The position numbers and the translations under genes are program-made. The notes beneath the pieces are model-generated. The model made no database searches. It saw only the letters and a list, made by a program, of their open reading frames with translations, and had not been told where the DNA came from. Positions 23,520-25,621 of a DNA stretch of 33,687 nt are shown one piece after another; the stretch's first letter is position 1; every line of letters begins with the position of its first letter. The stretch is taken from NCBI GenBank assembly GCA_019661945.1, contig JAIFWI010000007.1:1-33687 (forward strand), read 5' to 3'. The DNA comes from Candidatus Parcubacteria bacterium. Its GTDB lineage: Bacteria; Patescibacteriota; Minisyncoccia; Phycocordibacterales; JAKAEA01.

Positions 23520-23565
23520 AGACTCTTTGCATAAAGTGAAAAATAATGTAGAATAATCGTTGTTC

Positions 23566-23638
23566 GGGCCGGTAGCTCACCTGGTAGAGCGCCTCATTTG
23601 CACTGAGGAGGTAGGGGGTTCGAGTCCTCTCCGGTCCA
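23566..23638 (+). tRNA. tRNA-Ala (anticodon UGC)
   Basis: The 73-nt cloverleaf has a 7-bp acceptor GGGCCGG/CCGGTCC with the G3-U70 alanine identity pair, D-arm GCTC/GAGC, anticodon stem CCTCA/TGAGG around TTTGCAC, and T-loop GTTCGAG. The discriminator is A73. CCA is not encoded (ACAG follows), so it must be added by tRNA nucleotidyltransferase. The ORF over it is a shadow. Confidence 0.97.
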
Positions 23639-23642
23639 CAGC

Positions 23643-23668
23643 AAAAAATCGCCAAGCGGCGATTTTTT
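23643..23668 (+). terminator. intrinsic terminator of tRNA-Ala
   Basis: AAAAAATCGCC/GGCGATTTTTT, an 11-bp stem with a 4-nt loop, starting 4 nt after the tRNA. It would work on both strands. Confidence 0.88.
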
Positions 23669-23669
23669 C

Positions 23670-23795
23670 GTGGACCGGAAGCAAGCAAACTGCTTTGCTT
23701 GCGGGAGGACGAGAAAGCCGGAGCGCGACGGCGCGAGGCGGGGTCGCGCAAATTCGCAGTAGCGAATTATGTGTGACCGAGACTCTCCGGTCCAC
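23670..23795 (+). repeat. multi-hairpin element closed by tRNA acceptor copies
   Basis: A 10-bp closing stem GTGGACCGGA (23670-23679) / TCCGGTCCAC (23786-23795) encloses three perfect hairpins: GCAAGCAAA-CTGC-TTTGCTTGC (23681-23702), GCGCGAC/GTCGCGC (23723-23749, 13-nt loop) and AATTCGC-AGTA-GCGAATT (23751-23768). The closing arms match the tRNA-Ala acceptor end. The 3' arm is part of a direct repeat of the tRNA 3' end. GC is higher than in the surroundings. There is no convincing ORF. Confidence 0.8.
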
Positions 23796-23797
23796 CA
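23778..23797 (+). repeat. direct repeat of the tRNA-Ala 3' end, including CCA
   Basis: CGAG-A-CTCTCCGGTCCAC matches CGAG-TC-CTCTCCGGTCCAC at 23621-23639 of the tRNA, and continues CCA where the tRNA gene itself has ACAG. This layout fits an att-like duplication left by integration at a tRNA gene, or a mobile repeat that mimics the tRNA end. Confidence 0.6.
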
Positions 23798-23866
23798 ATT
23801 TGACTTAGTTTTTTGTATATTGCATTCTGTTTCGTAGACAGGTCCTTTTACCGCAAGGAGGTATCT

Positions 23867-24433
23867 ATGCGCAAGATTATACTGCTCGCTCTGGTCGGAA
23901 TCGTTTTCGCGGCTTTCACGGTCGAGGCGAACCAGCCAACGACCAAGCCGTCTCGACATCGTCCTACCAAGGCTGAGTGCAAGTACGGTGATGACCCCAT
24001 CTGGCAGGATCGTGCTGTGACCGAACTCATCGTTGTCCATCACAGCGCTACAAGTGGCGGCAATGTTGAGCGATTCGCTGAATACCACAAGGGAAAACCG
24101 GACAAGTTCAACGACATCGGCTATCACTTCGTTATCACCAACGGTAGCGGCGGACCAGATGGCGAAGTCCAGGAAGGCCGGTGGGAGTCTGCAGTTGGTG
24201 CCCACGATCCGAAGGAGAAGAGAAACTTTCGGTCGGTAGGTGTCTGCCTTGTCGGTGAAAATGTATTTACCGACAAGCAGAAGAGTGCACTCATCGATAA
24301 GCTTGCAGGGCTTTGCAAAAAGTACAAGATCAAGCCCTCTGCAGAAACGATCGTGCGCCACCACGATCGCTGCCCAGGTCGAGGTCTTGATCTTGATCAG
24401 ATAATCGCGGAGGTGAAGAAAAAGATTGGCTAG
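23867..24433 (+). CDS. secreted N-acetylmuramoyl-L-alanine amidase (Amidase_2/PGRP type)
   Basis: This protein of about 188 residues has a signal peptide (MRKIILLALVGIVFAAFTVEA, cleaved after VEA) and an Amidase_2 zinc domain: 'LIVVHHSAT', 'DIGYHFVI', 'RSVGVCLVG' and 'VRHHDRCPGRGLD' with the His and Cys zinc ligands of the T7-lysozyme/PGRP family. It should cleave the MurNAc-L-Ala bond in peptidoglycan outside the membrane, for remodelling, recycling or attack on another cell. I start at the ATG 5 nt after AAGGAGG; the track start adds 18 residues from the leader. It is a GC-richer unit with its own T run at the end (24461-24467). Confidence 0.93.
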   Translation: MRKIILLALVGIVFAAFTVEANQPTTKPSRHRPTKAECKYGDDPIWQDRAVTELIVVHHSATSGGNVERFAEYHKGKPDKFNDIGYHFVITNGSGGPDGEVQEGRWESAVGAHDPKEKRNFRSVGVCLVGENVFTDKQKSALIDKLAGLCKKYKIKPSAETIVRHHDRCPGRGLDLDQIIAEVKKKIG

Positions 24434-24450
24434 AGCTGCGACGGCATACC

Positions 24451-24467
24451 ACCGGGGCGGTTTTTTT
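24451..24467 (+). terminator. probable terminator of the amidase gene
   Basis: A short ACCG-GGG-CGGT hairpin followed by seven T, 17 nt after the stop. The stem is only 4 bp, so strength is uncertain. Confidence 0.5.
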
Positions 24468-24498
24468 ATGCTAGGGTATCCCACCTTGGGCTTGTTTA

Positions 24499-24507
24499 TG
24501 ATATTAT
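24499..24507 (+). promoter_or_regulatory. extended -10 of leaderless kinase operon promoter
   Basis: TGaTATTAT ends 7 nt before the ATG at 24515; no SD is present. Confidence 0.6.
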
Positions 24508-24514
24508 TAAACCC

Positions 24515-25621
24515 ATGTTTAGGACGTTTAAGAAACATAGTACACCTGCACAGACATCTAATACTGATATATCGGCATCCCAGCTTCAAACTGAAAAGGA
24601 AGAGCTTGAAATTATTGCTATGAATATGGAGGAAGGGGTGATTCTCCTTGATAACACCAAGAATGTTATTCTGGCCAATCGTTATATTAAAGAAATACTC
24701 AATATTGATATCGAATCTAAGGATAATTCCCAGGTCCTCAAAAAATTTTCGGAAGTATTGAATATTAATCCCCAGGACTATTTAGCGCCGCTTGATAAAT
24801 TTGTCCGTGTTACAAAAAAAGAATTTGATGCCGGTCGGAAAGTATATGATGTGTCATTTAGTTTAGCTCCTTCAGAAAGTACCCAGCATTATCTTATTTG
24901 GGTTCGAGATATTACTCAGCCTAAACTTCTTGAACGGGCTAAAACAGAATTCATTGCTTTGATTGCTCACCAGCTACGCACGCCTCTTACGGGAACAAAG
25001 TGGACACTCAATATGTTTTTAGATGGAGAAATTGGTGAAATTACTCCTGAGCAGAAAGGTTTTATTTCAAAATTGTATGACAGCAACGAACGTTTGATAC
25101 TTATTACCAACGATCTTCTCGAATCTCAGAAATTAGATTTGGCGGATACTCAATATTCCTTCAATTCCGTTCAGATATTCGATATCATTGATAATCTTGT
25201 CGGTGAGCTAAAAACAAATATTCAAAAAAAGCATATCACTGTTAATGTTCTAAGAAACACAGTTCCGATGCTGGAAATAGATCCGGATAAGATTCGCTTG
25301 GTTTTTCAGAATTTGCTGGATAATGCCGTTAAATATACAATGGAAGAGGGAACTATTACCATCGATGCTCATCCTGATAATGAGCAGGTAGTTATTAGTA
25401 TCACCGACACGGGAGTTGGTATTCCCAAAGATCAACAAGCTGATATTTTCAACCGATTTTACCGGGCATCAAATGCTCAGCATATTACCGGTTCTGGTTT
25501 GGGATTATTTCTTGTTAAGAAAATTATTGAGGGTCATGGAGGCAAGGTTTGGTTTGAAAGTGTTGAGTCGAAAGGGTCAACTTTTTATATAGCATTACCA
25601 TTACACAGAAAACATACATAA
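24515..25621 (+). CDS. PAS sensor histidine kinase (cytosolic)
   Basis: This 368-residue kinase has a PAS-like domain (about 25-135, 'MNMEEGVILLDNTKNVILANRYIKEIL'), HisKA with His152 in 'LIAHQLRTPLTGTKW', and HATPase_c with 'QNLLDNAVKYTMEEG', 'DTGVGIP' and 'GSGLGLFLVKKIIEGHGG'. No membrane helix is present. It is the first gene of a tight three-gene operon (gaps of 1 and 2 nt) with a receiver and a polyproline-coiled-coil protein, so the phosphate probably goes to the adjacent receiver. The following genes have no SD and depend on coupling. Confidence 0.95.
   Translation: MFRTFKKHSTPAQTSNTDISASQLQTEKEELEIIAMNMEEGVILLDNTKNVILANRYIKEILNIDIESKDNSQVLKKFSEVLNINPQDYLAPLDKFVRVTKKEFDAGRKVYDVSFSLAPSESTQHYLIWVRDITQPKLLERAKTEFIALIAHQLRTPLTGTKWTLNMFLDGEIGEITPEQKGFISKLYDSNERLILITNDLLESQKLDLADTQYSFNSVQIFDIIDNLVGELKTNIQKKHITVNVLRNTVPMLEIDPDKIRLVFQNLLDNAVKYTMEEGTITIDAHPDNEQVVISITDTGVGIPKDQQADIFNRFYRASNAQHITGSGLGLFLVKKIIEGHGGKVWFESVESKGSTFYIALPLHRKHT

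Follow-up and report, generated by a model that had tools for sequence, protein, structure and literature searches.

In a window of 33,687 nt from a Candidatus Parcubacteria bacterium (the whole stretch of DNA that was analysed), the gene for tRNA-Ala(UGC) is followed by a segment in which the end of this same tRNA appears twice more, once inverted and once in direct orientation. This raises the question of what the segment is and how it came to carry the end of its neighbour. It proves to be a copy of a repeat that is dispersed among the Patescibacteria, is conserved in structure and has the layout A-X-S-X'-core-X-B. Here X stands for the 3' end of the adjacent gene (in tRNAs, from C56 to the tail), X' is its reverse complement, S is a terminator-like or other hairpin, and the core consists of the hairpins H1 and H2 (Table 1).

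Anatomy of the tRNA-Ala locus

Table 1. Features of the tRNA-Ala locus, in window positions
Feature	Position	Strand	Basis
tRNA-Ala(UGC), intact, without encoded CCA	23566..23639	+	ARAGORN; Rfam RF00005, 60.9 bits
Left copy of X: tRNA-Ala 3' block from C56	23621-23639	+	
S spacer: perfect 11-bp hairpin followed by TTTTTT, terminator-like	23640..23669 (hairpin 23643-23668)	+	inverted repeats
X', outer part: GTGGACCGGA, reverse complement of the tRNA acceptor 3' strand	23670..23679	+	
H0: optional perfect 9-bp hairpin interrupting X'	23681..23702	+	inverted repeat and fold
X', inner part: reverse complement of the T-arm 3' strand, reaching T54	23704..23715	+	sequence and other copies
H1: GCC-GGA-GCGC-GACG-GCGC-GA-GGC hairpin, conserved, stems covary	23717..23739	+	pattern, alignment
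H2: 15-bp hairpin with conserved G-U pair, conserved bulged A (23769) and CAGYAG loop	23743..23777	+	fold, alignment
Right copy of X: tRNA-Ala 3' end from C56 on, then CCA	23778..23797	+	direct repeat

In the inverted-repeat listing the S spacer is the centre of a palindrome made with the end of tRNA-Ala. Its hairpin ends in TTTTTT, yet it was not scored by a simple terminator scan; no U run follows the core. In the outer part of X' an A, the exact complement, faces U70, whereas tRNA-Ala itself has a G3-U70 pair. That X' is an exact complement even at this position implies that it was copied from the complementary DNA strand. H0 is missing or altered in most other copies of the element, and H1 carries a conserved GGA/GA internal loop and a GNCG loop. 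The right copy contains a perfect direct repeat of 13 nt, CTCTCCGGTCCAC, at 23783-23795. RNA folding of 23669-23797 gave a minimum free energy of -68.5 kcal/mol, against -45.1 +/- 3.7 in dinucleotide shuffles (z = -6.3), and placed a multi-branch fold inside a closing stem of 10 bp. Of the Rfam families only RF00005, for tRNA-Ala, reached its gathering score; the best other match, RNAI over the element, had 18.4 bits against a cut-off of 47.

The initial annotation had described a 10-bp closing stem made of copies of the acceptor arm around three perfect hairpins. The tRNA-Ala gene and the closing stem made of its copied end were confirmed, but the acceptor arm is not the unit, which comprises nucleotides 56-76 plus the reverse complement from T54. 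Only the first hairpin, H0, is perfect, the second having an internal loop and the third a bulged A and a G-U pair. It was correctly noted that the outer copy ends in CCA (...CCACCA) and that the tRNA-Ala gene does not (...CCACAGC).

The insert at tRNA-Ala, about 157 nt long, contains no gene, and inspection of the window's ORF list by eye showed no integrase. Two open frames, 23594-24589 on the minus strand and 23560-23808 on the plus strand, traverse the tRNA and the element and are likely spurious; such frames might become annotated as hypothetical proteins.

A conserved family within the Patescibacteria

The range of the element was determined with a pattern for H1 and H2 only, which is blind to the arms. 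It matched in 14 of 60 relatives, and the reversed pattern matched in none of the same 60. Of the 29 distinct core-pattern loci, 22 have a tRNA or tmRNA on the same strand no more than about 350 nt away. In an alignment of 26 of these copies the share of paired cells is 89% and 25 of the 30 base pairs have changes on both sides, a result equalled by none of 500 shuffles. H2 contains a fixed G-U pair (25 of 26 copies), and the strand that folds is therefore the gene-sense strand.

Of 148 genomes from the order, 115 were matched by a covariance model (R1) built on this alignment, with copy numbers of up to at least 31 per genome, and so were 25 of 192 genomes sampled across the phylum. R1 includes 8 bp of the arm and hence favours tRNA-type copies, which the core-only pattern does not. 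Among 84,980 species genomes the exact pattern matched 48 records, whose titles name Nomura-, Kaiser-, Taylor-, Yonath-, Taga- or Berkelbacteria, Parcubacteria, Paceibacterota, Patescibacteria or unnamed MAGs. The same pattern had no match in the IMG/VR viral contigs, and a phage origin was rejected on this ground. In the genome of the window itself, relatives of the element lie behind tRNA-Ser(GGA), at the junction of contigs C33 and C27, and behind tRNA-Lys(UUU). The core sequences show no grouping, either by genome or by type of tRNA. Searches of open-licence papers on repeats, structured RNAs and tRNA elements of the Patescibacteria/CPR turned up no account of the element, and the family of folded repeats has apparently gone undescribed so far.

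The arms copy the end of the neighbouring gene

Within a set of 159 distinct copies, 85 have the 3' end of a tRNA or tmRNA at most 150 nt upstream on the same strand and only one has it on the opposite strand; a downstream tRNA is found on the same strand for 23 copies and on the opposite strand for none. Among the neighbours of these 85 copies are 15 isotypes of tRNA as well as tmRNA, from across the order. In 51 of the 85 the right arm and its own tRNA agree over at least 12 nt, compared with 0.17% for tRNAs of other isotypes, and the identity sets in sharply at C56 and falls to background from nucleotide 77. The left arm is the reverse complement of its own tRNA and reaches T54. At sites where the right copy and the tRNA differ, X' pairs with the tRNA in 21 of 22 cases, which indicates that the closing stem is not kept up by compensation. 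The distance from the left to the right C56 is narrowly distributed around a median of 148 nt (64 copies); in the window copy it is 157 nt.

This bears out the earlier suggestion of a structured repeat that travels with tRNA ends, as the core stands behind 15 isotypes and tmRNA, each time with the 3' end of that very tRNA. The association is not confined to tRNAs, however. The element is also present at the 3' end of rplK in nine families, at rplL and at other sites. In the nine families the X' of the rplK copies fits each gene's own codons and follows their synonymous changes, and at rplL in L079 a partial second unit stands in tandem. The CCA that had been taken as a clue proved to be no family feature across the 159 copies: it is encoded in few right copies and sometimes in the gene instead, and it was rejected as a signal.

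Empty sites, dispersal and variants

The segment does not stand unchanged behind tRNA-Ala in all relatives, nor is it confined to this site. The tRNA-Ala(UGC) genes of two genomes of the same family are without it, and similar elements abound elsewhere. A further empty site was found at tRNA-Glu. In G069 this locus begins with a 5' fragment of the tRNA, followed by an element and the full tRNA; behind these come a terminator-like hairpin, another element and a 3' fragment of the tRNA. In G134, of the same genus, unrelated sequence directly follows the tRNA, with neither element nor terminator. Four loci of G019 (L294-L297) share a near-identical unit of roughly 300 nt that holds the element, with nested hairpins. 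This repetition is evidence of a recent spread. Other copies in G019 begin with a REP-like sequence of the GTCATTCC type.

Several variants accompany the family. A second type of element, with GTGAG-stem-GCAAG at its left, occurs within duplicated tRNA or gene fragments (L044, L045, L051 and L086). A sub-family with self-complementary arms of its own is dispersed in G217 and G273, which belong to the same phylum and lie outside the class. In the window's own genome, two sub-family copies with long self-complementary arms are present at L290 (G000:C21) and L291 (G000:C35), the former between two protein genes that resemble dnaB and recR. This genome also holds remnants of the element: behind tRNA-Val a copy that lacks H1 and X' and whose right copy ends in CCA (L289, G000:C17), and behind tRNA-Lys(CUU) H2 alone (L292, G000:C3).

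In about a sixth of the S spacers the terminator-like hairpin is replaced by a common module, AATGATYCGCAAGA-stem-TCGAGCG..ATCATTGCG (e.g. L120, L127, L134 and L178), and for this reason the other cap, too, may be a conserved element. Another hairpin module, CGACCTTTTGAGA ... TATCCAAAAGGTGTACWGYTCCTGTAAGGAG, recurs at L049, L117, L132, L223, L231 and L284, often beside the core or replacing it, at rplK and tRNA sites. Where rplK lacks the core at its end (L236 and L242), different palindromes are present or part of the gene end is repeated. This suggests that the rplK 3' end is a hotspot.

Comparison with known systems

Prophages and ICEs that target tRNA genes have att sites consisting of an identity block of the tRNA 3' part from the T loop onward; they leave an intact tRNA and a displaced 3' fragment past the insert. 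As in the remnant of such an event, the element is flanked by the tRNA 3' block, has an intact tRNA on one side and faces an empty site in relatives. It differs in that the insert measures only about 110-170 nt and holds no gene, an extra inverted copy is present and most isotypes are used.

REP, CGTC-REP and BIME sequences are extragenic palindromes of 20-40 bp with GTAG or CGTC at one end of the hairpin (PMC3733652). Like these, the element is dispersed, extragenic and hairpin-forming, lies mostly downstream of genes and has G-T pairs in its stems. Unlike these, it is about 110-150 nt long, has a conserved multi-branch core and takes its arms from the neighbouring gene; the GTAG/CGTC tag is absent from the element ends in the 26-copy alignment and in the further copies inspected. 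In attC sites, R'' and R' boxes carry AAC and GTT at their boundaries (PMC2727003). The element shares with them a structure that is better conserved than the sequence and an extrahelical base, and a folded strand recombining with a double-stranded target would yield the observed layout. However, the foot of its stem lacks AAC/GTT R boxes, its closing stems follow the neighbouring gene, its arms match the target over about 20 nt, and neither an integron integrase nor cassette arrays were seen. REP-type palindromes and, in their logic, attC sites are the known kinds nearest to the element. As these defining features of both systems, the terminal tag and the boxes, are absent, the element would appear to be a new form of dispersed palindromic repeat with gene-copied arms that is a member of neither REP nor attC.

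With hairpin-capped inverted triplications (ODIRA; PMC10766183) the element has in common that one segment occurs in direct, inverted and again direct orientation. Its caps are instead a conserved imported core and a terminator-like hairpin, the segment is only about 20 nt long and its start is fixed at C56. TIGR-Tas systems are tandem stem-loop arrays of CPR with box C/D motifs and an adjacent Tas gene (PMC12045711). They resemble the element in their variable palindromic arms and in occurring in CPR genomes; the element consists mostly of single units scattered behind tRNA genes, no box C/D was recognized by eye and no neighbouring Tas gene was noticed. Identity with TIGR-Tas was rejected because of this different layout.

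Proposed insertion as a folded dumbbell and its alternatives

This conserved and dispersed repeat is best explained as a non-autonomous mobile element that would insert as a transient folded dumbbell, a reading to which we give a probability of roughly 0.4. In such a dumbbell, a folded strand, X and X' would pair to make the stem; the core would cap it on the side of the T loop and S on the side of the tRNA 3' end. If the dumbbell and a chromosomal tRNA gene exchanged one strand within X, X-S-X'-core would enter the chromosome as a unit, and the original gene end would remain as the right copy of X. The upstream gene would be intact because X is supplied by the element. Formally, such an insertion would resemble the integration of a folded single-stranded attC cassette, or small hairpin-capped intermediates that give inverted triplications. 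In a more specific form, which we propose more tentatively, a gene-free, hairpin-capped dumbbell of ~150 nt might exchange strands at the tRNA T loop and at the T-arm-like ends of ribosomal protein genes, bringing a replacement gene end with it. The proposal in the initial annotation that an insertion pushed the original end outward agrees with the layout and with the empty sites in relatives; the entity that moved, and its route, we infer.

Dumbbell insertion would account for the intact gene, the fixed border at C56, the exact complementarity of X' and gene and the partial second unit at L079. It is supported by the spread of the family, the conserved fold, the same-strand placement (85 versus 1), the agreement of right copies with their own tRNA and the narrow 148-nt period, as well as by the empty sites (tRNA-Glu in G134 and tRNA-Ala in the same family) and the dispersal in G019. 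A joint arrival of X and X' beside an older right copy would lead to the asymmetry at 21 of 22 sites, but drift of an unconstrained right copy would produce it as well. It also counts against this reading that the rplK X' following synonymous changes could mean a maintained structure, and that cores unclustered by genome or tRNA type give no pointer to how a core acquires each new X. No free dumbbell or circle was seen, and the viral contigs gave no match to the pattern. Nor does a Y1, reverse transcriptase or tyrosine recombinase gene follow the copy number of the element, as counted by hand. Y1 transposases occur in 16 of 26 high-copy genomes versus 90 of all 148 genomes from the order and reverse transcriptases in 14 of 26 versus 65 of 148. 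Genomes usually have a single tyrosine recombinase; G021 (20 copies) and G068 (13 copies) yielded none, and this lack of a recombinase correlation is a further point against dumbbell insertion.

Selection for an RNA structure at the 3' ends of highly expressed units (tRNAs, tmRNA, rplK and rplL), serving processing, termination or stability, with X' competing with the gene end and the right copy for pairing, would agree with the strong covariation and the G-U pair that marks the gene-sense strand as the folding one, with the placement behind genes on the same strand, and with the fit of X' to the codons of rplK in nine families. We nevertheless regard it as rather unlikely: the closing stem is uncompensated, X' being unpaired with the right copy at 21 of 22 changed sites; close relatives manage without the element; at many tRNA genes a terminator-like hairpin precedes it; and a second exact copy of the acceptor strand has no obvious RNA role. 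Host replication errors, by which template switching at hairpins would repeatedly create small inverted triplications at the ends of tRNA genes and rplK and trap the core at one switch point, seem unlikely too. The order X-X'-X is the signature of the inverted triplications that arise in yeast via hairpin-capped intermediates (PMC10766183), and coreless X-X' palindromes do exist at rplK (L224 and L242). Such errors fit poorly, however, with a core and an S that each occur singly rather than at both copies of their junction, with a C56 start common to many tRNAs and with a conserved core that needs imported sequence.

Mobilization of a REP-like palindrome by a transposase of the IS200/IS605 type (Y1, RAYT) is suggested by the dispersed and extragenic distribution, mostly downstream of genes, by the bulged hairpin and by the frequency of Y1 genes in the order. 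It is improbable, as the ends bear no GTAG or CGTC tag and the presence of Y1 shows no clear relation to copy number; Y1 transposition is not known to produce a target duplication or an inverted copy. The link to Y1/RAYT was rejected for want of a clear association. A retro-element primed by tRNA 3' ends, for which the X' block would act like a retroviral primer-binding site, draws on X' being complementary to the 3' part of the tRNA, beginning at the T loop. It is highly improbable, since CCA is rare on the right copies and neither the window's genome nor other high-copy genomes, e.g. G029, gave an RVT_1 match; a retro-mechanism was rejected on the missing match in the window's own genome.

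Significance

The genomes of Patescibacteria are very small, yet most of those sampled in the order carry the family, with up to at least 31 copies. The element may account for assembly breaks behind tRNA genes, as at the C33/C27 junction in the window's own genome, and for spurious ORFs there. In each copy the arms log the target gene and the start of the event, so that the chemistry of insertion can be read by genome comparison. The copying of the adjacent gene end into the arms points to an unusual route of insertion into tRNA genes, and the family may be a new mobile element. Should the dumbbell reading hold, it would be a mobile element without genes that makes use of single-strand folding and spares its target.
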